A stretch of DNA of 64,000 nt from Halosolutus halophilus. Lineage in GTDB: Archaea > Halobacteriota > Halobacteria > Halobacteriales > Natrialbaceae. The DNA is taken from positions 3,100,001 through 3,164,000 of the forward strand of contig NZ_CP094974.1 in the NCBI RefSeq assembly GCF_022869805.1. The letters are read 5' to 3'. The position numbers and the translations under genes are program-made. The notes under the pieces are model-generated. The model saw nothing but the letters and a program-made list of their open reading frames with translations. It ran no database searches and was not told the origin of the DNA. Of the stretch, positions 2,085 to 63,167 are shown in pieces (position 1 is the first letter of the stretch; each line of letters starts with the position of its first letter).

Positions 2085-2231
2085 TGGATGAGGTCTTCGT
2101 GATGAATGTTAAGAATATATCGGTACGTGGATGCCGGCCTCCGGAACGCTGACTCGTCGGCTCACGTTCTCTAAATCAGGGTTCTGTGAAGCCTGTAGCA
2201 CCGAGCTCACGAACCAAGATCAATGAGTTAG

Positions 2232-2522
2232 GACTTCAGAATCACTCCCGTGGAGGCCTTGGCGGCCGGCATGCCGCTTGTTGGTGTTGAAGAGTGGATG
2301 ACTCAGTACTAGATCGTGGATGAGATGAATGGCTACACCTTCGAACGCGACGAAACTGGCTCGACCATTCAAGATACAGTTCGTCGATTCGAGGCGGGCA
2401 GACTGGACTGGGATGCCGGAGATCGCGGCCTTCGGGACCGGTTCTCCGTGCAGGCGTTCCACGATCGCATGGACGGGGCAGTCCAACGCCGAATCGAAAA
2501 CGCGGACGCGACTCCCGACTGA
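2232..2522 (+). pseudogene. Relic of the C-terminal third of a GT4 (group 1) glycosyltransferase
   Basis: In one frame this reads DFRITPVEALAAG, then PLVGVEEWMTQY, then a TAG stop at 2310-2312, then NGYTF, then TVRRFEAG and RFSVQAFHDRM to a final stop at 2522. The intact GT4 gene at 10244-11422 has DFGIAPVEALAAG, PLLGVDEGMTQY, NGYKH, TVHRFETEG and RFSVDEFHEGI in the same order and spacing. The TAG replaces the Gln of MTQYQ. Upstream of 2232 the frame is lost. This is a degraded gene piece rather than a working small gene. Confidence 0.8.
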
Positions 2523-2591
2523 TACTCGGAGTCCAGAGGTACGTCGAAAATTCACGTCGAGAGTACGCCGAAAACTACCGCGCTCCGGGAA

Positions 2592-3497
2592 TCACCGAAG
2601 GAACTGCTTGGCGAACGTCAAAAATCGCCCGTTCCTGTCGATGCCGAACAACGCGATGACGAACATTGCATACGAGATGGGTCTGAATGGATAGCGGAGG
2701 ATGGCGAGTCCGAGGTGCTTCAATGCCTGCCAGCGGTCGCCGTTCGACTCGTAGTCCCGTCCGATAACGTGGTGGTGGTACGAGAAGATGCGGCTACGGG
2801 TGATGAAGCCGAAGTCCGACGCTCGTTCCTTGACCTTTTCGAAGACAGCGAGATCTCCTTCAATTCTGCTATCGAAGTCCTTCGAGATGCTGTCCGGTTG
2901 TTCGTGCTTATCAACGAGGATTTCGTCCACGTAATCGACCTCGTAGTGCTCTGTGATGCGAATCCAGAGGTCGTAGTCTTGTCGACTCGGCAGCGACGGG
3001 TCAAACCCGCCGACGTCCTCTATGACGTCCCTCCGAACCATCACCGTGGAGGTCGGATGCACTCGGTCACGTTCTAGTTCCTGCACGTAAATGTCGCCGG
3101 ACGCCTCGGGGTACCGGACCCACTCGCTGCCGTCCGTTTCATATTGTACGAACCCCGTATAGACGAGTCCGAGGTCGTCGTCACCGCGTTCAAACATGTC
3201 GAGTTGCTCCTCAATTTTCGTGGGTTCCCAGGTGTCGTCAGCGTCGAGAAATGCAATATAGTCCCCGTGTGCGGCTTTGATACCGGTGTTCCTTGCTTCG
3301 GCTGCACCACGGTTATGTTCGTGTTCGACCAGTCGAACCCAGTCGCCGAGTCCGTCAATAACTCGAGTTAGGTCAACCTCTGACGCGTCGTCCACAACGA
3401 CTACTTCCAGATTTTCAGTAGTCTGTTCACGGACACCCTCGAGTGCCTCTGTCAAGAGTTCAGGTTGATTGTACACAGGTATGACGACGCTTATCAT
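2592..3497 (-). CDS. GT2 family glycosyltransferase
   Basis: A 301-residue protein with a GT-A fold: the N-terminal ISVVIPVYNQ, VVVVDDAS near residue 36, GAAEARNTG near 64-72 and the metal-binding motif FLDADDTW (Asp85, Asp87). These features are typical of inverting GT2 enzymes that add sugars to dolichol-linked or polysaccharide acceptors from nucleotide-sugar donors. The C-terminal stretch around residues 240-290 is rich in Tyr, Ile and Phe and may dock to the membrane. It lies between a GT4 relic and a sulfatase-like gene that starts divergently at 3655, so it probably belongs to the surface glycan pathway. Donor and acceptor cannot be told from the sequence. Confidence 0.85.
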   Translation of the reverse strand: MISVVIPVYNQPELLTEALEGVREQTTENLEVVVVDDASEVDLTRVIDGLGDWVRLVEHEHNRGAAEARNTGIKAAHGDYIAFLDADDTWEPTKIEEQLDMFERGDDDLGLVYTGFVQYETDGSEWVRYPEASGDIYVQELERDRVHPTSTVMVRRDVIEDVGGFDPSLPSRQDYDLWIRITEHYEVDYVDEILVDKHEQPDSISKDFDSRIEGDLAVFEKVKERASDFGFITRSRIFSYHHHVIGRDYESNGDRWQALKHLGLAILRYPFRPISYAMFVIALFGIDRNGRFLTFAKQFLR

Positions 3498-3654
3498 CTG
3501 ATAGTATCGATTTGTTCAAGCACCCGTGTAGATTCTTTGGATGATCGCTGCCTGTTTGGTGGAGAGGACTGAATTGTCCAGTATCAAATTCGAGTCCAGT
3601 CGTCAGCGTTTTCCAAGCAATTATTTTGATTAGCAATAACAAATGAGATTCACA

Positions 3655-5085
3655 ATGGATAATGCACCAGATATTCTCTGGCTGAGTTTGGAGAGCGTTC
3701 GTGCCGATCATACACCCATGTATGGCTACAAACGCGATACGACACCATCTCTTGACCGATTTGCGAGCCAGCCGGCCACTACGGTGTTTGACAATGGAAT
3801 CGCACAGTCTCTTTGGACTCCAGCCTCTTCCGCCTCAATGCTGACCGGGACGTACCTTTCTACCCACCGCGTCGGGCAGGACGGACGTGCAGAAAAAAAA
3901 CTTCCCGCAGCTATCGACACGCTCCCAGAACTACTCAGTGATATAGGTTACGAGACTGCACTATTTTCTCCGAATCCGTACGTTAGTGAAGCAACGGGAC
4001 TTGACAGAGGATTTGACCATACCACATCTGTAAAGGCTGTCCCGGAAAGCTATTCACCGTTCCAGTCAGATGCGAGAATCTATTGGTCGGAAGGGCTGCG
4101 CAGAATTCTACGGTCCAGAAAACCGAACATTGTACGTATCAAGCACGAATTGAAGACCACAGAGAACGAGGTGCTTGAACACCACGCGAAACGGTGGCTA
4201 AATTCGACGGGTGCAAACGCTGATCAATTTTTCGCGTATATGCACATCCCCGGCCCGCACCACCCATACTTCCCGAACACCGACTACTTGAACTGCTTCA
4301 CCGACGAGATCTCGTTCTCTGCAGAAGAAGCGTACAACCTCGTGGAAGACATCTACTACGGAGGTTCGGTAGCGATTAAACGGAGGATGGCTGAAGGGCT
4401 TGACTTGTCCGCCAACGAGTGGGAGGCGATTGAGGCTATGTATGACGCGACACTCCGACACATGGACGACACCGTTGATGCCCTAATTTCGAAGGCGCGG
4501 TCCGTCTCGGACTCCCTCGTAGTCGTCGTCGTCGGTGATCACGGCGAACTTTTCGGAGAACACGGCCTCATTGGCCACAATTTGATTCTACATGACAATC
4601 TGATTGAGGTTCCAATGCTCATTTCGGGGATACCAGACGCTACCACAGACGAAACTACTTTGACACAGCAAATTGATCTAACATACACTCTAGGTGAAAT
4701 TACTGGTGTAACGACTGATCAATTTGAGGGACAAGATATCCGTAATACTGGTCGAAAGTATGCAATCAGTCAACGAGGGCGGGCGAATCTAACCTCATAT
4801 ACACAATATAACAATTCTTTCGACACCGAACGCTTTTTCAAAGATCCGTACACTGTAGTTCGAAGTGAAGAGTACAAATTGGCCTCTAACCAGAATCGAA
4901 CCGAACTCTATCGACTTCCAGACGAAGATACAGACGTTAAGAAACACTGTGACGATGTGATGGCGGAGCTAAGATCTGTCATTGACCGAGAGGCGATTGA
5001 ATGGACAGTCGGAGAGCAAAAGCGAGAATCGCACTTCGGCGATTCGCAACTTGAACAGCTGAAAGATCTGGGGTACTTGTCCTAA
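3655..5085 (+). CDS. Sulfatase-like alkaline-phosphatase-superfamily enzyme (Thr-type)
   Basis: A 476-residue protein with WLSLESVRADHT near residues 9-20 (Glu13 at the usual first metal Asp), loop LWTPASSASMLTG with Thr55 at the nucleophile position, and VGDHGELFGEHG near residue 295. A Thr nucleophile is the pattern of phosphodiesterases and phosphoethanolamine/phosphoglycerol transferases rather than formylglycine sulfatases. The C-terminus is QLKDLGYLS, the tail shared across the window. A TATA-like AATTATTTTGA near 3619-3628 places transcription start around 3650, so ATG 3655 (MDNAPD) is chosen over ATG 3643. The gene is clearly A+T-richer than most of the window, which suggests recent transfer. 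Confidence 0.8.
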   Translation: MDNAPDILWLSLESVRADHTPMYGYKRDTTPSLDRFASQPATTVFDNGIAQSLWTPASSASMLTGTYLSTHRVGQDGRAEKKLPAAIDTLPELLSDIGYETALFSPNPYVSEATGLDRGFDHTTSVKAVPESYSPFQSDARIYWSEGLRRILRSRKPNIVRIKHELKTTENEVLEHHAKRWLNSTGANADQFFAYMHIPGPHHPYFPNTDYLNCFTDEISFSAEEAYNLVEDIYYGGSVAIKRRMAEGLDLSANEWEAIEAMYDATLRHMDDTVDALISKARSVSDSLVVVVVGDHGELFGEHGLIGHNLILHDNLIEVPMLISGIPDATTDETTLTQQIDLTYTLGEITGVTTDQFEGQDIRNTGRKYAISQRGRANLTSYTQYNNSFDTERFFKDPYTVVRSEEYKLASNQNRTELYRLPDEDTDVKKHCDDVMAELRSVIDREAIEWTVGEQKRESHFGDSQLEQLKDLGYLS

Positions 5086-5131
5086 GGCACACCCAACTCC
5101 AATGTGCTTTCCACTGCTGAACTCCAGTCTG

Positions 5132-5254
5132 ATGGTGAAATCGATTTTAATCACCGGTGGCACAGGATTCGTTAGAAGTCACGATGCTATGTTTTATGAT
5201 AATCTCGGAATCAGTCGCATAGCTCTCGTTGAGCAGGTCTGCGAGCATCTTTAG
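5132..5254 (+). pseudogene. Relic of the N-terminus of a nucleotide-sugar epimerase/dehydratase (SDR)
   Basis: A 40-codon frame opens with MVKSILITGGTGFVRSH, a near-perfect copy of the NAD-binding start of extended short-chain dehydrogenases (normally ITGGTGFIGSH), and then diverges to a TAG. Only the first glycine-rich turn is recognisable, so catalysis is impossible. The rest of 5086-5498 holds no gene I can support; about 5370-5460 is abruptly G+C-richer than its A+T-rich surroundings and may be inserted material. Confidence 0.65.
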
Positions 5255-5498
5255 ACAAGAAAATTAATGACCTGCTTACTTCTTAAACTGACTCAACCAG
5301 ACAGTGCTGATGATCCCAGGATTGCTCATATTGACTATCTATTAGTGAATGAAAACATAAGTGAAATTGCCCGGTCGCGGGTGCTCGCTACGCCGCGGAG
5401 CATTCGCGAGTGATCCTCATCGGCGTGAGCGTGGTAGATCGGACCCCGGAATAGACTCAACCGATAAAATAAACACCTTCCGTTAGCACCCTTCCTTT

Positions 5499-6737
5499 AT
5501 GAATATCAACCGACGCACTATTTCTGCTGTTGTAGGGTTCATAATTCTGTTAGGGGGGGTTCGAACGGCCCTCAGACTCCTGATATCTGGTCCATCAACG
5601 CTTTTCATCGATTTTGGTGTGTACTACCAAGCAGCTGAATACGCTCTTGACGGACAGTCGCTGTATACCGCAGATTATTCCAGTATCCCGAATACTGGAA
5701 GTCGATGGCTCTATCTACCGATCTACACCATCCTGTTCATTCCGTTCACTGTGTTTCCGTATCCGGTTGCGACAATCCTCTGGGCCACAGCCACCGCACT
5801 TATTCTCGTTGTTTCAGTAGCCCACCTCTCAAATCAGCTGTTTCCATCTCTCACCACGCCGGAAACAGTTGTTCTCGGTGTTGCTGTACTCACATTCCCG
5901 CCGATTCTCTCTGCACTCTTTTTAGGACAGGTGACTCCCATGATTACTGCTGCGTTGTGTCTCTACGCTGGTTCTCTCGTAACAGATCGCGAAAACAACC
6001 TTATTCCCGGTGGGACTGCTACACTGGTGGCGATAACCAAACCAACCTACCTCCCAGTTGGTACCCCACTTCTCCGGTCGCCAAGACGACTTCTCGGTGC
6101 ACTCGTTGTCGGGTCAGTCACTCTCATCGCTGGAGTGTCCATTTTCGGGCTTGACCAACACATCGTCTATCTCGAAGTCCTGCAAGACGGAAAGGGATGG
6201 GGGACCGAGTCTCATCTCTCACCGAATGAATGGCGAGTGACGACGTATATGCCCTGGTACTATCTTTACCCTCATCATCTGTTCGCGAACGCCGCAGTTA
6301 TCCTAACGACGCTCCTCGCAACCTTCCTAACATGGGCGCAGCGGGATCGGGAAACTGAATTATATGTACTCGCTCTCGGGCTTTTCACAGTTCCGTTAGC
6401 AACGCCATCACCGGGCATTTTGGACCTCTCGATAGCGGTCCCGGGTATACTTGTCTTGACGGCTCTCGAAAATCAACGATCGGGTGGGCAACCGATTATC
6501 CCGGTTGGTGCTGCGGCGCTGATTGCCACTCATCCATTTCTGGTAGAGTTTTTAGCTGGCGATGTCACGAGGGGTCTGCCCGTCGTAGGGGCGATCGCAG
6601 AGGTATTACTTCCAGCACTTCCAGCACTATCACCCGCTTTATGGGCATCTTTGATCCTCTTTGCACTCCCACTTTGGCGGTTACTCAGCCAGACGACTCG
6701 CGTACCGACTGACCAGACCCACCATCTGTCTCCTTAA
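5499..6737 (+). CDS. GT87-type (DUF2029) polytopic membrane glycosyltransferase
   Basis: A 412-residue, very hydrophobic protein with about nine to ten transmembrane stretches. After the first, LFIDFGVYYQAAEYAL (Asp38 in the first outward loop) matches the pattern of GT87 polyprenyl-phosphate-mannose or glucose transferases, which use an acidic residue in the first loop to pass a sugar from a lipid donor to an acceptor outside the cell. It converges on the GtrA-like gene at 6734-7180; the two stop codons overlap by 3 nt. With the GtrA flippase and the GT2 at 7170-7940 it forms a set resembling bacterial GtrA/GtrB/GtrC glucosylation modules. The acceptor is unknown, presumably an S-layer or polysaccharide glycan. 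Confidence 0.8.
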   Translation: MNINRRTISAVVGFIILLGGVRTALRLLISGPSTLFIDFGVYYQAAEYALDGQSLYTADYSSIPNTGSRWLYLPIYTILFIPFTVFPYPVATILWATATALILVVSVAHLSNQLFPSLTTPETVVLGVAVLTFPPILSALFLGQVTPMITAALCLYAGSLVTDRENNLIPGGTATLVAITKPTYLPVGTPLLRSPRRLLGALVVGSVTLIAGVSIFGLDQHIVYLEVLQDGKGWGTESHLSPNEWRVTTYMPWYYLYPHHLFANAAVILTTLLATFLTWAQRDRETELYVLALGLFTVPLATPSPGILDLSIAVPGILVLTALENQRSGGQPIIPVGAAALIATHPFLVEFLAGDVTRGLPVVGAIAEVLLPALPALSPALWASLILFALPLWRLLSQTTRVPTDQTHHLSP

Positions 6738-7180
6738 ACACGCCATGTAAACAGCGATTCTGCAACGTAATTAAGTACCATCCCCACGCCAATTCCGATC
6801 AAATTTGCAACTGTCGGCCAGAGATCGACAGTACCCACCGTTAGCGATATTTCGACTAGGCTCGTCAGTACAAAAAGCACAGCAAATGCGACAAATAGCC
6901 CACCGATACGGACGATATGGGACTTCCCCCATCGGCGAAGGGTAGCAAGGTATCCATTGGTCCCGTGGGTTGCGAATGTCCACCGATCGTTGACCACAAA
7001 CATCGTCGAAATTGACGTCTCGGAACCCGCTGCTTTCGCGATGAGCGGCCCGACACCGAATAATGTGGTCAAAATCGCGACGATGATCGTCTCAATAACC
7101 GCACCAACAACCCCAACAGAAACGAACTGCCCAATCCGAGTTGTCTGAGCGAGCGCGTCAATTTTCGACTCAGTCGCCAT
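6734..7180 (-). CDS. GtrA-like membrane protein, putative lipid-linked sugar flippase
   Basis: A 148-residue protein with four predicted transmembrane segments and the GtrA-family features FVSVGVVGAVIE, then FVVNDRWTF (Asn-Asp/Arg-x-Trp-x-Phe) and a closing helix before SLFTWRV. GtrA proteins are thought to flip polyprenyl-phosphate-linked glucose across the membrane. ATG 7180 is chosen because it overlaps the end of the upstream GT2 gene by 11 nt (translational coupling). The in-frame start at 7255 would lie deep inside that gene and lacks family resemblance. The partner GT2 probably makes the lipid-linked sugar that this protein moves. Confidence 0.8.
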   Translation of the reverse strand: MATESKIDALAQTTRIGQFVSVGVVGAVIETIIVAILTTLFGVGPLIAKAAGSETSISTMFVVNDRWTFATHGTNGYLATLRRWGKSHIVRIGGLFVAFAVLFVLTSLVEISLTVGTVDLWPTVANLIGIGVGMVLNYVAESLFTWRV

Positions 7181-7940
7181 CGCTTCCGATCCCCATGAGG
7201 TCTGATTCATCTGTTGAATCCACATCCCGATACCGCGGACTTGTCGCGATCGCATCGGTTCGGCGCTTCACATCGATCAAGGCGCTTCCCAATTCAACCG
7301 AGGTCGTTAGTGGATTCACTGTCGATTCTGGATGGTCTTCCCACGTGACCGGCACCTCCGCAATTTTGTATCCGAGCGACCCTGCAACAGATACAAACTC
7401 AAGGTCCCACGCAAAGCCAGGTTCATAGCAGTGATGGGCGATTGACGACCATGCATCGGCTGTCACTGCTTTCGCACCGCACTGATAGTCCTGGCACTGG
7501 GTAGGTAGCATATATTGGGCTCCGAGAGCGAAAACGTCGCCGAGGAACCGACGGAGGACTGTCTGGTGGGTGATGATATTCGACGATGGGTGTCGTCGAG
7601 ATCCAATACTTACATCGGCCTCGCCAGTTGTAATCGGCTGAATGATGCCGGCGAGCGAGGATGCAGGGACCGACCCGTCAGCATCTGCAAAGAGACAGAT
7701 ATCTGTACCAAGGGCGTCGAAGCCGGCCATAATCGCGGCGCCTTTACCACGTCGTTGTTTAGAAACTCCGATTTCAACACCCATCTCAGAAAGCTGATCG
7801 ATGTGTTCTTGAGTAGGGACGTCAATTTCGATTCGGACGACTGTAGGAGAAATTTCCGACTCTATGTGTTCAATATACGTTTTGAGAGTCGGGATATCCG
7901 GCTGATATGCAGGAATAACGACTCCAATATAATCAGTCAT
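7170..7940 (-). CDS. GT2 glycosyltransferase, polyprenyl/dolichyl-phosphate hexose synthase type
   Basis: A 256-residue GT-A protein: VVIPAYQPD at the start, RRGKGAAIMAGF near residues 63-74, and FADADGSVP with Asp86 and Asp88. Then come GSRRHPSS and DYQCGAKAV, a layout typical of Alg5/DPM1-like enzymes that load glucose or mannose onto polyprenyl phosphate. The usual C-terminal membrane pair of GtrB is absent, so it would work as a peripheral enzyme on the cytoplasmic face. It overlaps the GtrA-like gene by 11 nt, giving a two-gene operon. Haloarchaeal AglJ and AglD belong to the same broad family, but I would not assign either name. Confidence 0.8.
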   Translation of the reverse strand: MTDYIGVVIPAYQPDIPTLKTYIEHIESEISPTVVRIEIDVPTQEHIDQLSEMGVEIGVSKQRRGKGAAIMAGFDALGTDICLFADADGSVPASSLAGIIQPITTGEADVSIGSRRHPSSNIITHQTVLRRFLGDVFALGAQYMLPTQCQDYQCGAKAVTADAWSSIAHHCYEPGFAWDLEFVSVAGSLGYKIAEVPVTWEDHPESTVNPLTTSVELGSALIDVKRRTDAIATSPRYRDVDSTDESDLMGIGSDGD

Positions 7941-51610: not shown

Positions 51611-52993
51611 ATGACGGTAGGCCCACCGATCGACGAACTTCACTACGACGACGCGCCGGACGTCGGCACCGTTCCAGGACCGAACTCCCGGAATCTGCTC
51701 GAAAAACAGCGGGAAATCGACAGCAATGCCGTCGCCTATCCGGAGGACATCCCCGTCGCGTTCGAGGAGGGAAGCGGCGCGACGGTCCGCGACGCCGACG
51801 GCAACACGTACATCGACATGTTCGCCGGCATCGGCGTCCTCAACGTCGGCCACGCGAACCCGTACGTGCTCGAAGCCGTCCACGAGCAGGCGGACAAACT
51901 GGTCCACACGGTCGACTTCCCGACCGAGGCACGACTCGAACTGATCGAAAAACTCGACGAGATCGCGCCCGACGGACTGCAAGGGAACACCCGGGTCGTC
52001 TTCGGCGGTCCCACGGGCAGCGATGCGATCGAGGCCTCGATCAAACTCGCCAAGTACAACACCGGCGGCGACGGTCTGGTCGCGTTCCGCGGTGCGTACC
52101 ACGGTGCGACGACCGGCGCGATGAGCATCACCTCGAACACCAAGTTCAAAGGCCACTACACGCCGCTGCTGTCGGACGTCGTTCACGCGCCGTACCCGTA
52201 CCCGGTCAATCAGGGGAAAGAACCCCAGGAAGCGGTCGATCACGCGCTCGAGGAGGTCCAGGCGATCGTCGAAGATCCGTACGGCGGTCTCGCTAACCCG
52301 GCCGGGATCTTCGTCGAACCGATCCAGGGCGAGGGTGGCGTCGTGACGCCGCCGGAAGGGTTCCTGCAGGGGCTTCGCGACATCGCGGACGACAACGAGA
52401 TCCCGCTCGTCTTCGACGAGATCCAGAGCGGACTGGGGCGCACCGGCGAGTGGTGGGCCTGCGACTGGGCGGGGGTCACGCCGGACGCGATGACCTCCGC
52501 GAAAGCGCTCGGCGGCGTCGGCTTCCCGCTGTCGGCGACGATCTATCACGAGGACCTCGACACGTGGGGGTCGGGCGATCACGCCGGCACCTACCGGGGT
52601 CACGTCGTCGGAATGCGGGCCGGCACACGGGCGATCGAGTACATTCAGGCCCACGACCTGCTGGCCCACGCCCGCGATCTGGGCGAGACGATCCGCGGCC
52701 GACTGCGCGAAGCCGCCGCGGAAACCGATCGACTCGTCGAAGTCCGGGGACAGGGGCTGTTCATCGGTGCCGAGTTCGTCGACGCCGACGGCTCCCCGGA
52801 CGGCGACCTCGTCGACGCCATTCAGCAGTACTGTTTCGAACGCGGCGTCCTCGTCTGGACGGCCGGGCGACACGGCAGCGTCCTCCGGCTCCTGCCGCCG
52901 CTCGTCCTCACCCACGAACTCGCCGAGACGGCCCTCGACGTCGTCGTCGAGGCGATCGAACACGTGACCGAGCAGGCCGCACGGACCGCCTGA
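51611..52993 (+). CDS. Class III aminotransferase (4-aminobutyrate / omega-amino acid type)
   Basis: A 460-residue fold-type I PLP enzyme: [78 protein letters not shown] and the PLP lysine in TSAKALGG (Lys298). It would move an amino group from an omega-amino or diamino acid to 2-oxoglutarate or pyruvate. A TATA-like CTATTTATC near 51579-51587 gives a leaderless ATG at 51611. TGTGTA lies at 51548-51553 and TTGTGGACAA at 51569-51578. It is followed after 16 nt by the RidA gene. First gene of the catabolic island; the true substrate is unknown. Confidence 0.88.
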
Positions 52994-53009: not shown

Positions 53010-53399
53010 ATGACTGACGCGACTCCTATCGAAACCGACGACGCACCGAGCAACGACAACCCCTACTCACAGGGCGTCCGTGCCGGAGAGACGCTCTACG
53101 TCTCCGGGTACGGCCCCGTCGATCCCGACACGGGCGAGGTCGTCGACGGCGACATCGCCACCCAGACCGATCGCGTGCTCGACAACATCGCCGCCGTGGT
53201 CGACGATGCCGGCGGCGACGGCCTCGCCGACCTCGTCAAAGTGACCGTCTACCTGACCGACCTCGCGGACTACGAGCGGGTCAACGAGGCCTACGGCGAA
53301 CGATTCGACGACGCTCCGCCGGCACGAGTCTGCGTGGAGGTCTCGCGACTCCCCGAGGACGTCCGCATCGAACTGGACGCGACCGCGTACCTCGGGTAG
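53010..53399 (+). CDS. RidA family enamine/imine deaminase
   Basis: A 129-residue protein of the RidA/YjgF/UK114 family: SNDNPYSQGVRAGETLYVSGYGPVD, then LVKVTVYLTDLADYERVNEAY, PARVCVEVSRLPED (conserved Arg) and IELDATAYLG. RidA hydrolyses reactive enamines such as 2-aminoacrylate released by PLP enzymes. It sits in an operon with the class III aminotransferase, and a threonine-dehydratase-like enzyme lies 6 kb away, both possible enamine sources. Confidence 0.9.
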   Translation: MTDATPIETDDAPSNDNPYSQGVRAGETLYVSGYGPVDPDTGEVVDGDIATQTDRVLDNIAAVVDDAGGDGLADLVKVTVYLTDLADYERVNEAYGERFDDAPPARVCVEVSRLPEDVRIELDATAYLG

Positions 53400-53660: not shown

Positions 53661-54941
53661 ATGTCCTACGACGTGCGAAACAGATTGCGCGATCTCCGGC
53701 GGGCGTTTCACCGCCATCCCGAACCCGGATGGCGCGAGTTCCGAACGACCGCACGCGTCGTCGAGGAACTCGAGCGGATCGGCGTCGACGAGATCGCCGT
53801 CGGGCGCGACGCGCTGGCGATCGACGAGCGCATGGCCGTGCCCCCGGAGTCCGAACTCGAGCCCTGGCTCGAGCGCGCCCGCGAGGCGGGGGTTCGATCG
53901 GATATCCTCGAGCGCACTGCCGGTGGGCGGACGGGGGTCGTCGCGGTGCTCGAGCAGGGAGCGGGGCCCTGTATCGGGTTGCGCGTCGACCTCGACGCGA
54001 TCTCGATGCGGGAGGCCGACGATAGCGACCACCGGCCGGCCGCCGAAGGGTTCCGATCCGAACACGACGGCTACATGCACGCCTGCGGCCACGACGCCCA
54101 CGTCGCGATGGCGCTGGGAACGCTCGAGGCGGTCAAAGAGAGCGACTTCGCGGGCACGCTGAAAGTCTTCTTCCAGCCGGCCGAGGAGATTTCCGGTGGG
54201 GGGAAGGCGATGGCCGAGAGCGGCTACCTCGACGACGTCGACTACCTCCTCGCGCTTCACATCGGCCTCGGCCACCCCACGGGCGAGGTCGTCGCCGGCA
54301 TCGAGAAACCGCTCGCGATGGCCCACCTGACCGCGACGTTCGAGGGTGCCAGCGCCCACGCCGGGAAGGCACCGAACGAAGGAGCCAACGCCATGCAGGC
54401 GGCGGCGACAGCTATTCAGAACGCGTACGGCATTCCCCGGCACAGCGACGGGATGACCCGCGTGAACGTCGGCTGCATCGAAGGCGGCACCGCGAGCAAC
54501 GTCGTCGCCGAGGAGGTCACGATCGAAGCCGAGGTCCGCGGCGAGACGACCGCGCTGATGGAGTACATGCGCACGGAACTCGAACGGGTACTGTACGCTG
54601 CCGCCGAGATGCACGACTGCGACGTCACGCCGCGGGTGATCAGCGAGTCGCCCCGCGTCGACAGCCATCCCGCCCTGCGCGACCTCGTCGGAAACGTCGC
54701 GTGGGAGGTCGAGGGCGTCGAACGAGTGGTCTCCACGGAAGACTTCGGCGTGAGCGAGGACGTCACCTACCTGATGGAGCGCGTCCAGGACGACGGCGGA
54801 CTGGCGACGTACGTCCTGATCGGCACCGATCACCCGACGAGCCACCACACGCCGACGTTCGACGTCGACGAGCGCAGTCTCGATATCGGGGTGGCGCTGC
54901 TGTCCGAGACGGCTATCGAACTCTCCCGCCGGCGCCCGTAA
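53661..54941 (+). CDS. M20 amidohydrolase (AbgA-like), longer paralogue
   Basis: A 426-residue metallo-amidohydrolase: FHRHPEPGWREFRT at the start, GLRVDLDAISM, MHACGHDAHVAMALGT (metal ligands), QPAEEISGGGKAM, GASAHAGKAPNEGANAM (dimerisation lid) and GTDHPTSHHTPTFDVDE (last metal His). A 30-residue linker near residues 55-90 resembles that of AbgA-type aminobenzoyl-glutamate hydrolases and is missing in the paralogue at 60756-61982. Likely substrates are N-acyl or amide-linked amino acids. A TATA-like GATTAAGTAT near 53627-53636 supports ATG 53661. No signal peptide. Confidence 0.88.
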   Translation: MSYDVRNRLRDLRRAFHRHPEPGWREFRTTARVVEELERIGVDEIAVGRDALAIDERMAVPPESELEPWLERAREAGVRSDILERTAGGRTGVVAVLEQGAGPCIGLRVDLDAISMREADDSDHRPAAEGFRSEHDGYMHACGHDAHVAMALGTLEAVKESDFAGTLKVFFQPAEEISGGGKAMAESGYLDDVDYLLALHIGLGHPTGEVVAGIEKPLAMAHLTATFEGASAHAGKAPNEGANAMQAAATAIQNAYGIPRHSDGMTRVNVGCIEGGTASNVVAEEVTIEAEVRGETTALMEYMRTELERVLYAAAEMHDCDVTPRVISESPRVDSHPALRDLVGNVAWEVEGVERVVSTEDFGVSEDVTYLMERVQDDGGLATYVLIGTDHPTSHHTPTFDVDERSLDIGVALLSETAIELSRRRP

Positions 54942-55029: not shown

Positions 55030-55677
55030 ATGAGTCAGGACGACCTGCCGGAGTCGCTGCAGACGGCAGCGGACTCGGATCGCCCGCGCGGAATTCTCAC
55101 GCCCTCCGACCGCGATTTCCTGCTCGGCCGGAAGACGGACTACACGGATCACTCGAAAAAACAGAAGCGAAACCGGATCCGACGCCGCGTCCGGAACGCG
55201 ATTCTCGATTTCAGCATTCTCTTCGAGTACATGGAAGAGCGCGACCGGGAGACGGTCTTCGACCCCAACGACGAGGACCGCGACGCGTACACCCGGGGAA
55301 TCACCGACATGCTCGCCTTCCTCCACCTCGGGACGATGGGCTACTACACCCCGTTCAAGGACATGCTCTCCGAGGGCGTCGGGAAGGCCGAACAGCAACT
55401 CGCCGGCTCGAACTACCGGATGGTCAACGTCGAGTTCAACGTCGAACCGGTCGGCCAGATCGACGTCGACGAGGTCGTCGAAAAACTCGAGAACGAGGAG
55501 TTCGCCCAGCTCACCGACGAGGAACTCCGGGCGTTCGTCCGACTCCTGACGATGTCCGACGCGTTCTCACCGGAAGCGACCCGCGAGGAGATCAAAGACC
55601 GTGTCGACGAGTTCAGCCAGAAAGTGTCCGAGAGCGCCGACGTCCGCGAGCAGAAGTTCGAGGAACTGACGAACTGA
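55030..55677 (+). CDS. Haloarchaeal DUF5806-like cytoplasmic protein
   Basis: A 215-residue, strongly charged protein: RGILTPSDRDFLLGRKTDY near the N-terminus, KKQKRNRIRRRVRNAILDF, YTRGITDMLAFLHLGTMG and a helical, acidic C-terminal half likely to be coiled. It resembles a widespread haloarchaeal family of unknown role. A TATA-like CGTTAATTCG near 54998-55007 gives a leaderless ATG at 55030. It is probably not part of the surrounding catabolic island and may be an insertion point of the core genome. The following 55678-56104 stretch holds no gene I can support. Confidence 0.75.
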   Translation: MSQDDLPESLQTAADSDRPRGILTPSDRDFLLGRKTDYTDHSKKQKRNRIRRRVRNAILDFSILFEYMEERDRETVFDPNDEDRDAYTRGITDMLAFLHLGTMGYYTPFKDMLSEGVGKAEQQLAGSNYRMVNVEFNVEPVGQIDVDEVVEKLENEEFAQLTDEELRAFVRLLTMSDAFSPEATREEIKDRVDEFSQKVSESADVREQKFEELTN

Positions 55678-56104: not shown

Positions 56105-56194
56105 ATGCCATCACGCATCATGGTGGACGGTAGATGGGGTCACGACCAATCAGCGAGCCATCGGTCGATTCCGGAGGTGAGACCGAATGAGTGA
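56105..56194 (+). CDS. Leaderless upstream micro-ORF coupled to the BCCT gene
   Basis: A TATA-like GTTTATTG (56074-56081) puts transcription start at about 56105, exactly on an ATG that reads 29 codons (beginning MPSRIMVDGRWG) to a TGA at 56192-56194, overlapping the first codons of the transporter. The transporter's own Shine-Dalgarno GGAGGTGA (56173-56180) lies inside this frame. The peptide is basic and unlike known proteins, so its translation rather than its product may matter. Confidence 0.45.
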   Translation: MPSRIMVDGRWGHDQSASHRSIPEVRPNE

Positions 56195-57851
56195 CGCTGA
56201 GAAGGGAGCGGTCGACACCTTCCTCGAGGAGATCGATCCGACGGTCTTCCTGTTCGGGGCGCTGTTGACCGTCGGCGTGATCGCCGCGTTCTTCGTCAGT
56301 CCGGGTTCCGTCGAGAGCGGTATCACGTCCCTGAACGATTCGCTGCTCGGGGCGTTTAACTGGGCGCTGCTGGTGATCGTGTTCCTGATCGTCGTATTCC
56401 TCCTGTTCCTGATCGTGGGCCCCTGGGGGAAGATCAGGCTCGGCGACGAGTCGCCGGAGTACAGTTTCCTGTCGTTCTTCGCGATGCTGTACTCGGCAGG
56501 GTTCGCGGCGGGCGTCGTGTTCTGGGGGCCGACCGAGGCGCTGTTCTACTACGACAACCCCTCGCCGCTGTTCGGCGGCGTCGAGGGCGGTTCGGCCGAA
56601 GCGATGACCGTTGCCGTCCAGCAGACGCTGTTCCACTGGGCGCTCCCCCAGCTCGCGGTGTTTACGATCATGGGGATCGCGATCGGCTACTTCGCGTACA
56701 ACTACGAGAACGTCCCGCTGCGGGTGTCCTCGGCGCTCACGCCGATCATCGGTGCCGAGAACCTCGACGGGCCGTTCGCGAAGGTCGTCGACATCCTCGC
56801 GGTCTTCGCGACGATCGGTGGCGTGGCCACGTCGCTCGGCTTCATCGGTAGCCAGTTCATCACCGGACTCGACTACCAGTGGGGCATCAACATGGGGAAC
56901 GCCGGTATCCTCCTCGTGGTGACGATGATGACGCTGCTGTTTACGACCTCGATGGTGCTGGGGGTCGACAGGGGGATTCGCCGACTCTCGAACTTCAACA
57001 TGGTCCTCTTCGTCATCCTCATGTTCGCGACGTTCATCGTCGGCCCGACGCTGTTCCTGATCCTGCTCGGGACGCAGGCCTTCGGCGGGATGATCACCGA
57101 CTTCGTCTCGATGAGCCTCTTCACCGGCGCCGGCGCCTTCGGTGGAGGCAATCCGGAAGCCACGAACTGGATGAACGACTGGACCGTCTTCTACTGGGCG
57201 TGGGCGCTCTCGTGGTCGCCGTTCGCGGGCCTGTTCATCGCCCGCATCTCCAAGGGTCGGACCGTCCGTGAAGTCGCGTTCACCGGTATCGTCGCGACGT
57301 CTGCGGCCACCATCCCGTGGTTCACGTTCGTCGGCGGCACCTCCGTCTGGGCCCATCACAACGGCGTCGCCGACTTCAGCGCGGTGATGGCGGGCGAAGC
57401 CGGCGCGGAGGTCTCCGGCTTCATCCTGTTCGAGGCGTTCCCGTTCGGGACGGTGTTCATGATCGCGTTCATGATCCTCGTGACGACGTTCTTCATCACG
57501 TCCGCGGACTCCTCGACGCTGGCCGTCTCGATGATGACGACCGGCGGGAAGGCCCGGCCGTCGTCGATCAACCGCATCTTCTGGGGCGTCGTCCTCGGGA
57601 TGACCGCGGCGATCCTGATGATTCTCGGCGGGACTGGCAGTGCGAACACGCTCCAGCAGGCGGCGATCATCACCGGCACGCCCTTCGCCTTCGTCTGCTT
57701 CATCGCGATGCTCTCGCTGATCAGGGACTTCGGATCGAATTACGGCCAGGTGTTACTCCAGGACGAGACCGTCCTCGTCGGCTCGAGTACGAAAACGGAA
57801 ACCGAACCGCCGACCGGTCCAGGCGGCCCCGTCGAGTCGGACGACGACTGA
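56187..57851 (+). CDS. BCCT family transporter with non-canonical substrate site
   Basis: A 554-residue transporter with 12 helices. The family signature is WTVFYWAWALSWSPFAG followed by FIARISKGRTVREV near residues 328-355. Compared with BetP, helix 4 reads HWALPQLAVF where BetP has HWTLHPWAIY. Helix 8 reads WAWALSW where BetP has WAWWISW. Trp194, Tyr197 and Trp374 of the betaine box are therefore Leu, Phe and Ala; Trp189 remains. The glycine stretch is GFAAG. It probably imports a solute other than a trimethylammonium compound. ATG 56187 has a strong GGAGGTGA 7 nt upstream. Confidence 0.88.
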   Translation: MSDAEKGAVDTFLEEIDPTVFLFGALLTVGVIAAFFVSPGSVESGITSLNDSLLGAFNWALLVIVFLIVVFLLFLIVGPWGKIRLGDESPEYSFLSFFAMLYSAGFAAGVVFWGPTEALFYYDNPSPLFGGVEGGSAEAMTVAVQQTLFHWALPQLAVFTIMGIAIGYFAYNYENVPLRVSSALTPIIGAENLDGPFAKVVDILAVFATIGGVATSLGFIGSQFITGLDYQWGINMGNAGILLVVTMMTLLFTTSMVLGVDRGIRRLSNFNMVLFVILMFATFIVGPTLFLILLGTQAFGGMITDFVSMSLFTGAGAFGGGNPEATNWMNDWTVFYWAWALSWSPFAGLFIARISKGRTVREVAFTGIVATSAATIPWFTFVGGTSVWAHHNGVADFSAVMAGEAGAEVSGFILFEAFPFGTVFMIAFMILVTTFFITSADSSTLAVSMMTTGGKARPSSINRIFWGVVLGMTAAILMILGGTGSANTLQQAAIITGTPFAFVCFIAMLSLIRDFGSNYGQVLLQDETVLVGSSTKTETEPPTGPGGPVESDDD

Positions 57852-57971: not shown

Positions 57972-57988
57972 TACACATAAACTGTGTA
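57972..57988. promoter_or_regulatory. Inverted-repeat operator at the aminotransferase start
   Basis: TACACA-TAAAC-TGTGTA is a perfect 6-bp inverted repeat. It begins about 10 nt after a TATA-like GTTTTAATG (57956-57964), covers the expected transcription start and ends on the A of ATG 57988. A near copy lies at 62016-62032. Confidence 0.55.
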
Positions 57989-59349
57989 TGGATAGGGACA
58001 CGGCGGAACCCGACGCGGACGCGCTTCCGGGTCCGAACGCGCAGCGGTGGGTCGACTTCCACCAGGAGTACTCGGCTCCCAGCGAGTACTCCCACGAATT
58101 CGTCTGGGACGTGACTCGCGAGGCCGACGGACCGTTCGTCACCGACGTCGACGGGAACGTTCTTCTCGACTTTACCTGCCACATCGGCGCGGCACCGCTC
58201 GGCTACAACAACGAGAAGGTCCTCGAAAAGGTCCGCGAGTTCGACCTCGTCGAACCGATGAAGATCGCGGGCCAGGACATGTACTTCGGATCCGGACCCG
58301 ACCCCGAAGACGCCGCCTTCCCTGGCTCGAGTCACCTCATGGAGAAGCTGACCGAGGTTTCGAGCCAGTACGGAATGGACACCGTCTTCCTCTCGAACTC
58401 CGGCGCGGAGGCCATGGAGAACTCGATGAAGATTACCCACGACTACCGGGCACCGGCGAAATACGGCGTCGCGTTCGGCGGCAGCTTCCACGGCCGCACC
58501 CTCGGCACCCTGTCGCTGACGAAATCCAAGGCGGTCTACACGCACCACTACCCCGAAATCAGTGGGATCGAGACGGTTCCGTTCTGTGCCGATCGGGGCT
58601 GTGACGCGAGTCGCTGTGACTGCGGCTTCTTCGCGGGCGGCGACTCGCAGTTGCGGTCGATGCTCGCACCCGAAGGCGGCCACGTCGAACCCGACGAGGT
58701 CGCGTTCCTCGCGCTCGAGCCGATCCAGGGCGTCGGCGGCTACCGCTTCCCGAGCGAGGCGTTCATGCAGGAGGTCGCGGACGTCACCGATACTTACGAC
58801 ATCCCGCTGGTCGTCGACGAGATCCAGTCCGGCGTCGGCCGAACCGGCGAGATCTGGGCCTCCGACCACTACCCGATCGAACCGGACGTCATCGCCAGCG
58901 CGAAAGCCCTTCGCGTCGGCGCGACCATCTCCCGCACCGAAATCTTCCCCGACGAGAAGAATCGCCTGGGTTCCACCTTCGGCGGCGGCGACCTGCTCGG
59001 CTCGATGATGGGCGCGTTCACCCTCGAGGCCATCGAGGAACACGACCTGCTGGACAACGCCACCCGACGCGGGAAGCAGGCCAAAGAGCACCTGCGCGAC
59101 GACGCACCCGAGTACGTCGAGGACGTCCGCGGCAAGGGCCTGATGCTCGCCGTCGAATTCGATACTGCGGAGCGTCGGACCGCCGTCGTCCAGGCGGCCC
59201 TCGAGCGCGGCCTGCTGACCCTCGGTTGCGGCGAGAAGACGATCCGGCTGCTCCCGCCGCTGGACTCGACCGACCGCGAGATCGAACTGGGGATCGGTAT
59301 CTTCCTGGAGGCGATCGAGGCCGTCGGTCCGAGTGCCAGGGTGGCGTAA
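57988..59349 (+). CDS. Class III aminotransferase with a four-cysteine cluster
   Basis: A 453-residue PLP enzyme: VTDVDGNVLLDFTCHIGAAPLGY, FLSNSGAEAMENSMK, FGGSFHGRTLGTLSLTK, EPIQGVGGY, VDEIQSGVGRTGEIWA and the PLP lysine in ASAKALRVGA (Lys306). The segment FCADRGCDASRCDCGFF holds Cys200, 205, 210 and 212, a spacing suited to binding zinc or iron. Cys insertions at this place are known in some archaeal class III enzymes annotated as aminotransferases or amino acid racemases, so racemase activity is possible. Leaderless ATG after the operator; probably follows the BCCT gene functionally. Confidence 0.85.
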   Translation: MDRDTAEPDADALPGPNAQRWVDFHQEYSAPSEYSHEFVWDVTREADGPFVTDVDGNVLLDFTCHIGAAPLGYNNEKVLEKVREFDLVEPMKIAGQDMYFGSGPDPEDAAFPGSSHLMEKLTEVSSQYGMDTVFLSNSGAEAMENSMKITHDYRAPAKYGVAFGGSFHGRTLGTLSLTKSKAVYTHHYPEISGIETVPFCADRGCDASRCDCGFFAGGDSQLRSMLAPEGGHVEPDEVAFLALEPIQGVGGYRFPSEAFMQEVADVTDTYDIPLVVDEIQSGVGRTGEIWASDHYPIEPDVIASAKALRVGATISRTEIFPDEKNRLGSTFGGGDLLGSMMGAFTLEAIEEHDLLDNATRRGKQAKEHLRDDAPEYVEDVRGKGLMLAVEFDTAERRTAVVQAALERGLLTLGCGEKTIRLLPPLDSTDREIELGIGIFLEAIEAVGPSARVA

Positions 59350-59508: not shown

Positions 59509-60759
59509 CTATTCGAGCGATCGGTCGACGATCGAGACACCCTCGAGTTCCGAGAGCGCCTCGAGCGCGCCGTCTACGTGTTCGGGACCGCTTCCCTCGA
59601 GTCCGATCGTGACGGGCGTCCGATTCGGGTGGTCGACTGCGGTTCGACGGGCGCGCTCGAGGGCGTCCAGTTCGGCACCCGCCGATTCGACGGTGGCAGC
59701 GACGTCGCCGACGGCCGTCGGCCAGTCCGCGAGCGCGAGTCGGGCCTCGGCGTAGCGCTCGAGTTCGTGGAGGCCGGTCCGAGTCAGTTCGGCGTGGTCG
59801 GTGAGGTTCACGTTCCCGCCGGAGACGACGACGCCGACGTGCTCGCCATCGAGGGCCACCTCGTCCGACAACGCAGCCGCGAGCGGCGCTGCCCCGGCGC
59901 TCTCGACGACCGTCTTCGCGCGCTCGGCCAGCAAGGTGACTGCAGCGGCGATTTCCCGATCGCTCACGCTGACCACGTCGTCGACGACCTCGCGGGCGAT
60001 TTCGAAGGTCGTCTCGAGCATGCGCGTGTCCGCGATCCCCTCCGCGACGGTGTCGACGTCCTCGAGTTCGTGGATCGCGTCGGCCTCGAGCGACGGCTTC
60101 GCGTGGGCGGCGCCCTCCGGCTGTACGCCGATCACACGAATGTCACGCTCGGCGGCTTTCAGGGCCGTTCCGATCCCGCCGACGAGCCCGCCCCCGCCGA
60201 TCGCGACCAGCACGGTGTCGATCTCGGGGTACTGCTCGAGCAGTTCGAGCCCGATCGTCCCCTGGCCGGCGACGATCGCCTCGTCGTCGAAGGGGTGAAC
60301 GAACGTCTCGTCGGTCTCGGCGGCTCGTTCGAGGGCGTACTCGTAGGACCGCTCGTAGATGTCGCCCTCGACGACGACCTCGGCACCGTAGCCGCGGGTG
60401 GCCTCGATCTTCGCCGCGGGGGTTACCTCCGGGACGACGATCGTCGTTTCGATGTCGAGCAGATCGCCGGCCAGCGCCACTCCCTGCGCGTGATTGCCCG
60501 CGCTCGAGGAGATGACGCCCCGTTCCCGTTCCGCGGCGGAGAGCTGGGCCATCCTGTTGTACGCCCCGCGGATCTTGAACGAACCCGTCCGCTGGACGTT
60601 CTCGAGTTTGAGCCCGATCGAGGTCGCGCCGCTCAGTTCGGCGAAGGTCCGCGAGGTGTCGAGCGGGGTCCGGTGGACGACGTCTGTAATGCGCTCCCGG
60701 GCCGCCTCGACGTCCGCGACGGTGACGGGGGGATCGCTCGTGCTTTGATCTCTGCTCAT
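59509..60759 (-). CDS. ilvA: Threonine dehydratase-like PLP enzyme
   Basis: A 416-residue fold-type II enzyme: LKLENVQRTGSFKIRGAYNRM with PLP Lys62, SSSAGNHAQGVA, HPFDDEAIVAGQGTIGLE, AIGGGGLVGGIGTAL (phosphate-binding glycines) and VVVSGGNVNL. A C-terminal ACT-like segment spans about residues 335-416, which makes it like allosteric catabolic or biosynthetic threonine ammonia-lyases. The ATG overlaps the stop of the M20 gene (ATGA), so here it belongs to a catabolic pair. EutB-type hydroxyectoine enzymes are related, so the substrate may be another hydroxy-amino acid. The gene symbol is by homology only. Confidence 0.85.
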   Translation of the reverse strand: MSRDQSTSDPPVTVADVEAARERITDVVHRTPLDTSRTFAELSGATSIGLKLENVQRTGSFKIRGAYNRMAQLSAAERERGVISSSAGNHAQGVALAGDLLDIETTIVVPEVTPAAKIEATRGYGAEVVVEGDIYERSYEYALERAAETDETFVHPFDDEAIVAGQGTIGLELLEQYPEIDTVLVAIGGGGLVGGIGTALKAAERDIRVIGVQPEGAAHAKPSLEADAIHELEDVDTVAEGIADTRMLETTFEIAREVVDDVVSVSDREIAAAVTLLAERAKTVVESAGAAPLAAALSDEVALDGEHVGVVVSGGNVNLTDHAELTRTGLHELERYAEARLALADWPTAVGDVAATVESAGAELDALERARRTAVDHPNRTPVTIGLEGSGPEHVDGALEALSELEGVSIVDRSLE

Positions 60760-61982
60760 ACCTCGATTCCGTCCTCCGCCTGCGCCACCGGGTGTCGGGC
60801 CTCGAGTTCGCGGATCGTCCCGACGAGCACCTCGACGCCGTGTTCGAGGCTGCGCTCGTCGACGTCGAACGTCGGCGTGTGGTGGCTCGTCGGGTGATCG
60901 GTACCGACGATCACGTACGTCGCCAGTCCGCCGTCGTCCTGGACGCGCTCCATCAGGAAGGTCGCGTCCTCGCTCGCGCCGAAATCGGCGGCCGGCAGCA
61001 CGCGCTCGATTCCCCCGACGCCGGTCGCAATTTCGCTCACCAGCGCCTGGAGTTCGGCGTCGCTGTCGGCCCGCGGCGACTCGCTGACCACGTCGACGTC
61101 GGCCCGGCAGCCGTGCATCGTGGCGGCGGACCTGATCGTCCGCTCGAGGCGCCGTTTCACGTACTCCATCAGTTCGGTGGTCTCGCCCCGCGCTTCGGCC
61201 GCCATGTGGGCGTGCTCGGCGATGACGTTACTCGCTGACCCCGCCTCGGCCTTGCCGACGTTCACGCGGGTCATCCCGTCGCTGTGGCGAGGGATCCCGT
61301 ACGCGTTCTCGATCGCCGTTCCCATCGCGTGCATGGCGTTGGCCCCTTCGTTTGGTGCCTTCCCGGCGTGGGCGGAGGTCCCCTCGATCGTCGCGTCGAC
61401 GTGGCACATCGCGAGCGGTTTCTCGATGCCGGCGACGACCTCGCCCGTGGGGTGGTCGAGACCGACGTGGACGGCCAGCAGGTAGTCGAGATCGTCGGCG
61501 AACTCGCTCTTGGCCATCGGGAAGCCGCCGCCGGAAATCTCCTCGGCCGGCTGGAAGAAGACGACCAGACGGCCCGCGAAGTCGCTCGCCTCGATCGCCT
61601 CGAGGACGGCCAGCCCCCAGGTCATGTGGGCGTCGTGGCCGCAGGCGTGCATGGTCCCGTCGATCTCCGATCGAAAGCCCTCGGCCGCGGGGTCGTGTGC
61701 TTCGTCGGTCGATTCCTCGATGAACAGGCCGTCGATGTCGACGCGCAGCCCGATCGCAGGTCCCTCGCCGCGCTCGAGGACGGCGACCGCGCCGGTGTTG
61801 CCGCCGGCCATCCGATCGGCGGGGTCGTAGGCGTCGGGGCCGACGGCCAGTTCGTCGACGCCGATCGCACGGATCTCCTCGACGAGCTGGGCCGTGGTGA
61901 AGAATTCGCGCCACGCTGGTTCGGGGTGGCGGTGGAAGCTGCGACGAACCGTCGCGAGTCGGTCCCGAATCGGGTCGGTCAT
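60756..61982 (-). CDS. M20 amidohydrolase, shorter paralogue
   Basis: A 408-residue metallo-amidohydrolase closely matching 53661-54941: FHRHPEPAWREFFT, MHACGHDAHMTWGLA, QPAEEISGGGFPM, GTSAHAGKAPNEGANAM, IPRHSDGMTRVNVG and GTDHPTSHHTPTFDVDERSL. It lacks the 30-residue linker. The high similarity suggests duplication inside the island and perhaps two related substrates. A TATA-like GTATAATTAAG on the minus strand near 62009-62018 and an operator-like repeat at 62016-62032 control it together with the threonine-dehydratase gene that it overlaps. Confidence 0.88.
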   Translation of the reverse strand: MTDPIRDRLATVRRSFHRHPEPAWREFFTTAQLVEEIRAIGVDELAVGPDAYDPADRMAGGNTGAVAVLERGEGPAIGLRVDIDGLFIEESTDEAHDPAAEGFRSEIDGTMHACGHDAHMTWGLAVLEAIEASDFAGRLVVFFQPAEEISGGGFPMAKSEFADDLDYLLAVHVGLDHPTGEVVAGIEKPLAMCHVDATIEGTSAHAGKAPNEGANAMHAMGTAIENAYGIPRHSDGMTRVNVGKAEAGSASNVIAEHAHMAAEARGETTELMEYVKRRLERTIRSAATMHGCRADVDVVSESPRADSDAELQALVSEIATGVGGIERVLPAADFGASEDATFLMERVQDDGGLATYVIVGTDHPTSHHTPTFDVDERSLEHGVEVLVGTIRELEARHPVAQAEDGIEV

Positions 61983-62183: not shown

Positions 62184-63167
62184 ATGAACGCACATTCAGA
62201 CGCACATCCGGACGTCGTCGTTCTCCGAGAGGGGACGGAAGGACTGTCGATGGAATCGTACGCCGAAGCCCTGCGCGAGCGACTGTCCGATCACACCGTC
62301 GCACTCGCGCGGACGCCGAAAGAAGAGCGCGACCTCGTCCCGCAGGCGCGGGTCGTGACCGGCATCACGATCGAAGCGGACCTCCTCGAGCGGGCCGACC
62401 GACTCGAACTGTTCGCGTGCACCTTCGCCGGCACCGATCACGTGCCGACGGACGCGCTGGCTGACCACGGCGTCACGGTGACGAACGCGGGTGGAATCCA
62501 CGCTCCCGGAATCGCGGAGCAGGCCATCGGGAACATGCTCGTCTTCTCCCGGCGGCTTCACGAGGGGTGGCGGCGCAAGCAAAACGGCGAGTGGCGACAC
62601 TTCCAGTCGTTCGAGTTCACCGACAGCACCGTGACGATCGTCGGCCTCGGCTCGATCGGCCAGGAGATCGTAACGCGCCTCGGGGGGTTCGAGGTCGAGA
62701 CGATCGGCATCCGCTACACGCCCGAGAAGGGGGGTCCGACCGACGAGGTGCTCGGCTTCGAGGCCGACGACGTCCACGACGCGTTCGCCCGGAGCGACTA
62801 CGTCGTCCTCGCGTGTCCGCTCAACGACCTGACGCGCGGGCTCGTCGGCGAGGAGGAACTGGCGACGCTCCCGCCGAACGCCGTCGTGGTCAACGCGGCG
62901 CGCGGCGCCATTGTCGATACCGACGCGCTCGTCTCGGCGCTCCAGTCGAGCACGATCCGTGGCGCCGCCCTCGACGTCACCGACCCCGAACCGCTCCCGA
63001 ACGACCACCCGCTCTGGGACCTCGAGAACTGTCTCATTACGCCACACACCGGCGGCCACACGCCGAAGCACTGGGAGCGGCTGGCCGACATCGTCGCGCA
63101 CAACGTCGAGGCGCTCGAGACCGGCGGTGACCTGGAGAACGCGGTGTACCAGCCCGATTCGAGCTGA
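62184..63167 (+). CDS. D-2-hydroxyacid dehydrogenase
   Basis: A 327-residue NAD(P)-dependent enzyme: FAGTDHVPTDALADHGV, NAGGIHAPGIAEQAIGNML, VTIVGLGSIGQEIVTRLGGF (dinucleotide fold), NAARGAIVDTDALVSAL (catalytic Arg region), DVTDPEPLPNDHPLWDL (Glu) and ITPHTGGHTPKHWERL (His). It reduces 2-oxoacids to D-hydroxyacids or the reverse. Its 3' end is 5 nt before the FAD-linked oxidase gene, so a 2-oxoacid/2-hydroxyacid pair is likely, possibly handling the oxoacids made by the island's aminotransferases and dehydratase. Confidence 0.9.
   Translation: MNAHSDAHPDVVVLREGTEGLSMESYAEALRERLSDHTVALARTPKEERDLVPQARVVTGITIEADLLERADRLELFACTFAGTDHVPTDALADHGVTVTNAGGIHAPGIAEQAIGNMLVFSRRLHEGWRRKQNGEWRHFQSFEFTDSTVTIVGLGSIGQEIVTRLGGFEVETIGIRYTPEKGGPTDEVLGFEADDVHDAFARSDYVVLACPLNDLTRGLVGEEELATLPPNAVVVNAARGAIVDTDALVSALQSSTIRGAALDVTDPEPLPNDHPLWDLENCLITPHTGGHTPKHWERLADIVAHNVEALETGGDLENAVYQPDSS

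Follow-up and report, generated by a model that had tools for sequence, protein, structure and literature searches.

What would a relative of a betaine symporter take up once part of its betaine-binding cage has been lost? The question is raised by a gene of the BCCT family in Halosolutus halophilus, encoded on the forward strand at positions 56187–57851 of the window, as we call the whole stretch of 64,000 nucleotides analysed here. Annotation pipelines label such genes BCCT or betaine transporters. An earlier note on this DNA had proposed, from alignment by eye, that the protein has lost most of its aromatic box and should carry another solute. One candidate is ectoine, which, like hydroxyectoine, is a salt protectant made by other microbes and combines a flat ring, a delocalised positive (amidinium) charge and a carboxylate. 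With its betaine pocket partly lost and genes resembling an ectoine-degrading pathway alongside, the transporter probably imports ectoine or hydroxyectoine as food.

A transporter with the fold of BetP

The gene is carried by a haloarchaeal chromosome of 5.06 Mb and encodes, from an ATG start and in an intact reading frame, a protein of 554 amino acids (P0001). It belongs to the BCCT family (TC 2.A.15), matching PF02028 across the entire domain (480 bits against a cut-off of 27, profile positions 1–482 of 485), and scores 404.8 bits with the NCBIfam model of glycine betaine BCCTs, NF047988, below the 650-bit cut-off. Its nearest named relatives, from Haloterrigena sp. H1 and Natrinema gelatinilyticum, are 90–91% identical, as would suit a member of the Natrialbaceae. 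The closest solved structure in a phmmer search was BetP, the Na+/glycine betaine symporter of Corynebacterium glutamicum (E 5e-76). Structure prediction, recommended in the earlier note, gave a confident BCCT fold: an AlphaFold2 model built from 53 haloarchaeal relatives reached a pLDDT of 87, and Foldseek matched it to the LeuT-type fold of BetP with a TM score of about 0.84 and 33% identity. Compared with BetP, the C-terminal tail of the model is short and of low confidence.

The side chains of the Na2 site (F464, T467 and S468 in BetP numbering), which mark Na+-coupled BCCTs, are all present in the motif FFITSADS. At the Na1 site, T250 of BetP is replaced by valine, and this position is hydrophobic in all haloarchaeal BCCTs aligned. 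The third transmembrane helix carries GFAAG where BetP has GMGIG, departing from the GxGxG motif of quaternary-ammonium BCCTs; this is not decisive, because betaine-linked haloarchaeal BCCTs have GIAAG too.

An aromatic box half lost

The register with BetP that had been drawn by eye was recovered by phmmer, with HWTLHPWAIY of BetP facing HWALPQLAVF in helix 4 and WAWWISW facing WAWALSW in helix 8, both free of gaps. It is flanked by the invariant H150-W151 and W337 and the nearly invariant W339 (window numbering). By this alignment, W189 of the BetP box is kept as W151 (codon 56637–56639), W194 has become L156 (56652–56654), Y197 has become F159 (56661–56663) and W374 has become A340 (57204–57206), a position occupied by proline in a sister clade. 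All four codons are on the forward strand, and the box W189/W194/Y197/W374 thus reads W, L, F, A. Three of the four cage residues are replaced, as the earlier note had it, but only two of the four are no longer aromatic; the second aromatic cluster of BetP, W373 and W377, is retained. Given an aromatic phenylalanine at 197 and the survival of W373 and W377, we describe the box as half lost, and loss of most of it was an overstatement. M150 of BetP is also replaced, by phenylalanine. The serine at BetP position 253, presumably the counterpart of S204 in the DMSP transporter DddT, is kept as S216. In DddT, S204 is a carboxylate ligand (PMC13270143).

In a published comparison, the equivalents of W194 and W373 were conserved in all BCCTs compared, and those of W189, Y197, W374 and W377 only in quaternary-ammonium carriers (PMC11708041); the window transporter breaks the rule at W194. 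The further claim that it is unable to form a cation–π box goes too far, given that W189, F197, W373 and W377 remain and that in DddT the W321A exchange, at the W374 position, raised DMSP transport. That residue being dispensable in DddT (PMC13270143), we do not accept an inability to bind betaine as shown.

A pattern fixed in one clade

The same W/L/F/A box was found in 56 of 56 rows of the clade of the window transporter, gathered from orthologues at 40 named loci and by searching genomes; these sequences are about 73–100% identical to it, bar one relative at 61%. The family alignment proposed in the earlier note thereby shows one and the same box throughout the clade, and the alignment to BetP, gap-free in both helices, bears out the box positions. 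As all 56 rows share these residues, the pattern is fixed and reflects neither chance nor decay. That the alignment is wrong and an intact box lies elsewhere, or that the gene is decaying, is therefore extremely improbable: we found nothing in favour of either, misalignment is ruled out by the gap-free register with its invariant H150-W151 and W337, and decay by the identical box residues and the confident fold.

A sister clade, 54–60% identical, has W/W/F/P in 13 rows and W/Y/F/P in one; its members thus retain W194, and they share the same gene cluster. Both clades are linked to homologues of the ectoine hydrolase DoeA, as described below, and form one branch within the haloarchaeal BCCTs (support 100/98), whose own sister is a clade with a mainly full WWYW box. 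Phenylalanine at 197 combined with alanine or proline at 374 occurs in all 70 members of the two DoeA-linked clades and in not one of the 28 rows that have WWYW and lie in betaine context. The tree requires two changes at position 197, three at 374 and three at 194. The cage would have been dismantled stepwise, with Y197F and the change of W374 to alanine or proline at the base of the joint clade and W194L arising later in the window subclade. Clade-discriminating positions fall in the pocket in 3 of 15 cases (p 0.04), or in 5 of 15 (p 0.0009) with positions 193 and 381, which we added ourselves; this enrichment lends weak support to a remodelling of the site.

Loss of W374 alone is no functional marker, because one of the changes at this position, to valine, sits in a separate clade without a DoeA link. 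In that clade (L113, L116, L117, L119, L123; positions 358326–367741 of H. turkmenica pHTUR02 and relatives) Y197 is kept and two rows also have W194 replaced by leucine; its loci hold a tight group of three BCCTs, with glyA and a gene for a glycine-betaine ABC transporter nearby. The 61% identical W/L/F/A relative (L167, 3646–8288 of G248:C33) lies beside a DAO-type oxidoreductase and a DoeA-like protein of a second type, 55% identical; another genome (G061) has such an oxidoreductase/DoeA-like pair without this BCCT.

Genes around the transporter

Amidohydrolases and aminotransferases had been reported beside the transporter, and M20 and class-III enzymes of these kinds indeed occur on both of its flanks. 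Upstream, all on the forward strand, lie the aminotransferase AT1 (51611–52993, start provisional), RidA, a Rid family detoxifying hydrolase (53010–53399, TIGR00004 over cut-off), a first M20 amidohydrolase (53664–54941) and, adjoining the transporter, a conserved protein of 214 residues (55033–55677). AT1, also found in the cluster of relatives, has its best NCBIfam matches, below their cut-offs, among diaminobutyrate/acetylornithine aminotransferases, and is a candidate DoeD-like diaminobutyrate (DABA) aminotransferase. The M20 enzyme, over the cut-off of TIGR01891 and with a weak match to DoeB2 (118 bits, cut-off 550), is a candidate N-acetyl-DABA deacetylase. The 214-residue protein has no match in Pfam or NCBIfam; present in 29 of the 40 named loci, it is encoded with the BCCT in the majority of clusters, facing either way, and may have a regulatory or accessory part in the use of ectoine.

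Downstream follow a second class-III aminotransferase, AT2 (57988–59349, forward strand; in 33 of the 40 named loci), and two genes on the reverse strand: a threonine ammonia-lyase-type PLP enzyme (59509–60759; TIGR01127 over cut-off, EutB models at 245–268 bits, below cut-off) and a second M20 amidohydrolase (60756–61982; TIGR01891 over cut-off, DoeB2 a weak 99 bits). A D-2-hydroxyacid dehydrogenase recognised by profile matches (62184–63167) and a YdiJ-like FAD/Fe-S D-2-hydroxyacid dehydrogenase of 1042 residues, which starts at 63173 and continues past the window edge at 64000, both lie on the forward strand. This gene set recurs in relatives, in conserved or rearranged orders.

The genome's matches to EutC and EutE are weak and unlinked to the cluster, so that the enzymes serving as deacetylase and cyclodeaminase in bacteria have probably been replaced or are missing. 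A search for the ectoine synthase EctC gave no match, but neither did its control. At another locus outside the window (L074, 10227–11566), a ribulose-1-phosphate aldolase gene adjoins one for a ribulose-1,5-bisphosphate phosphatase of haloarchaeal type, the pair matching NF053831 and NF053830, both over cut-off.

Linkage to an ectoine hydrolase homologue

Directly after the YdiJ-like gene, outside the window and on the reverse strand (G000:C1:3166466–3167644), lies a homologue of the M24 ectoine hydrolase DoeA/EutD. It stands about 9 kb downstream of the BCCT, beyond the amidohydrolase, aminotransferase and EutB-like genes. Over its full length it matches the ectoine hydrolase model TIGR02993 with 472 bits (E 1e-141), short of the equivalog cut-off of 613 bits; among solved structures it comes closest to DoeA (6twk, 393 bits), while Xaa-Pro dipeptidase scores 110 bits and creatinase 75. 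Uptake of amino acids or peptides, suggested by the amidohydrolases alone, was set aside because this homologue was found beyond the window.

The linkage holds across the class. Among 292 genomes, 99 have a BCCT of one of the two clades; all 99 also have a DoeA-type gene, which lies within 25 kb of the BCCT in 88, and only four genomes have a DoeA-type gene without such a BCCT. Fisher's test gives p 6e-74 when shared ancestry is ignored, and these large counts are not independent, because the split of box and context is essentially one evolutionary event. In two genomes (L095 and L097) the genes for the BCCT and DoeA point away from each other, some 300 bp apart, with no further recognised cluster gene, and on a Haladaptatus plasmid the BCCT adjoins the DoeA-type gene. 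In two of the four genomes lacking a clade BCCT, the DoeA cluster adjoins an ABC importer (L164 in G039, 3634–7799; L165 in G094, 771–4056) with a TOBE_2-bearing ATPase and permeases; in one of them Pfam also identifies a solute-binding protein. It looks as though one transporter had taken the place of the other.

The association is not complete in every locus: at 6 of the 40 named orthologous loci, no gene recognised as part of the cluster lies within 8 kb. On a Natronorubrum bangense plasmid the orthologous BCCT lies among tryptophan-synthesis genes, so detached copies exist. Two loci of the DoeA-linked clades (L021 and L086) have an oxidase-type neighbour as well, in L086 a weak match of 30% identity. 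DoeA-type labels at L117 and L154, outside both clades, were discounted as weak matches of about 30% identity.

The second BCCT of the genome

The genome has only one other BCCT (L075, G000:C1:4309197–4310747). It is 50% identical to the window transporter, shares the GxAAG pattern of the third helix and has an intact WWYW box. Its neighbours are genes for dimethylglycine-oxidase-like and sarcosine-oxidase-like proteins, a Rieske oxygenase, glyA and a Ser/Thr dehydratase; with gene families assigned by reading the sequences, these surroundings are a glycine-betaine demethylation cluster. Dimethylglycine oxidase genes are known to adjoin BCCTs in haloarchaea (PMC3102087). Every sampled haloarchaeal BCCT of this betaine-catabolism clade, sister to the window transporter's branch, keeps WWYW.

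What the transporter may carry

From the residues, their conservation, the tree and the gene linkage we infer substrate, coupling ion and direction of transport: the window BCCT would be a Na+-coupled importer of ectoine, 5-hydroxyectoine or both, feeding a haloarchaeal ectoine-catabolic cluster, a reading to which we give a probability of about 0.75. Without Trp194 and Trp374 the cage would be wider, and W189, W373 and W377, with S216 at the Ser253 position, would be left to hold a flatter compound bearing an amidinium group and a carboxylate. Once imported by the BCCT, ectoine would be opened by the DoeA/EutD-type M24 hydrolase to N-acetyl-diaminobutyrate, which an M20 amidohydrolase, substituting for DoeB/EutE, may deacetylate; a class-III aminotransferase would then transaminate the diaminobutyrate in the direction of aspartate. 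A hydroxyectoine branch is the probable role of the EutB-like lyase and the 2-hydroxyacid dehydrogenases. The earlier expectation of a different solute is in this respect backed by the contrast between ectoine hydrolase linkage and the betaine context of intact-box BCCTs.

The remaining aromatics (W189, F197, W373 and W377) might also suffice for an osmoprotective transporter of compatible solutes in general, carrying glycine betaine and perhaps ectoine. Half of the cage and the second tryptophan cluster are still there, DddT moved DMSP better without the W374 equivalent and has phenylalanine at the Y197 position, ectoine transporters are often of broad specificity (PMC5924519), and some BCCT copies stand outside the cluster. 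Against such a generalist, which we consider unlikely, the sampled BCCTs of the betaine-catabolism clade all keep WWYW, the genome already has one such protein, and the distribution of both altered clades tracks DoeA almost exactly. We find it just as doubtful that the BCCT imports another substrate of the cluster, on which the M24 enzyme would act in place of ectoine, such as N-acetyl-diaminobutyrate, another N-acyl amino acid or a guanidino or cyclic amidine compound. The matches to DoeA, DoeB2 and EutB all stay below their NCBIfam equivalog cut-offs, two M20 enzymes, two aminotransferases and the 2-hydroxyacid dehydrogenases exceed what ectoine alone would need, and an arginase-family gene adjoins the DoeA cluster in two genomes (L163 and L164). 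Yet DoeA is by far the better match of the M24 protein, well ahead of Xaa-Pro dipeptidase and creatinase, and a Priestia plasmid with an annotated EutB beside an M24 gene (56–58% identical) and an M20 gene resembles the ectoine clusters of Bacillales, among which some with abgB and without eutE are described (PMC13188858).

Whether the ectoine reading extends to a whole haloarchaeal subfamily dedicated to ectoine and hydroxyectoine, with the stepwise loss of the cage as a residue code separating ectoine from betaine carriers, we regard as evenly balanced. The code would comprise Y197F, W374 to alanine or proline and W194 to leucine, together with M150F/L, P193Q and V381A.

Relation to known systems and outlook

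Apart from BetP, which does not sit among ectoine-type catabolic genes, the window transporter can be set beside several characterised BCCTs. By its proposed substrate and its family it resembles EctT, EctP, EctM and LcoP (PMC5924519); these are bacterial and osmoprotective, a contrast drawn from their description and not from their box residues. An EctP-type ectoine symporter has been said to be widespread in haloarchaea (PMC4230888). DddT (DMSP) and TmaT (trimethylamine) likewise have substrates other than quaternary ammonium compounds, but both keep tryptophan at 194 and 374, where the window transporter keeps neither.

In April 2026, more than 100 archaeal EutD homologues were reported, provisionally, in clusters with aminopeptidase, aminotransferase and BCCT genes that are conserved between haloarchaeal genera (PMC13188858). 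This is very likely the cluster seen here; the part of that report consulted does not touch on the binding site of the transporter, the pair of sister clades or a betaine-linked control. The advance is modest, since a BCCT-containing putative ectoine cluster of archaea had already been noted. We found no earlier description in the literature of a remodelled binding site in an archaeal ectoine-linked BCCT; what is new here is that the site has changed in a fixed manner across the clade and that this change agrees with the gene context.

With its pair of related BCCTs, one with the box intact and the other with it altered, the genome offers a clean test of the choice between betaine and ectoine. 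If the ectoine reading is true, 99 of the 292 haloarchaea sampled, about a third, possess a route dedicated to feeding on ectoine, and such use of ectoine would connect bacteria of the salt-out type with salt-in archaea in brines.
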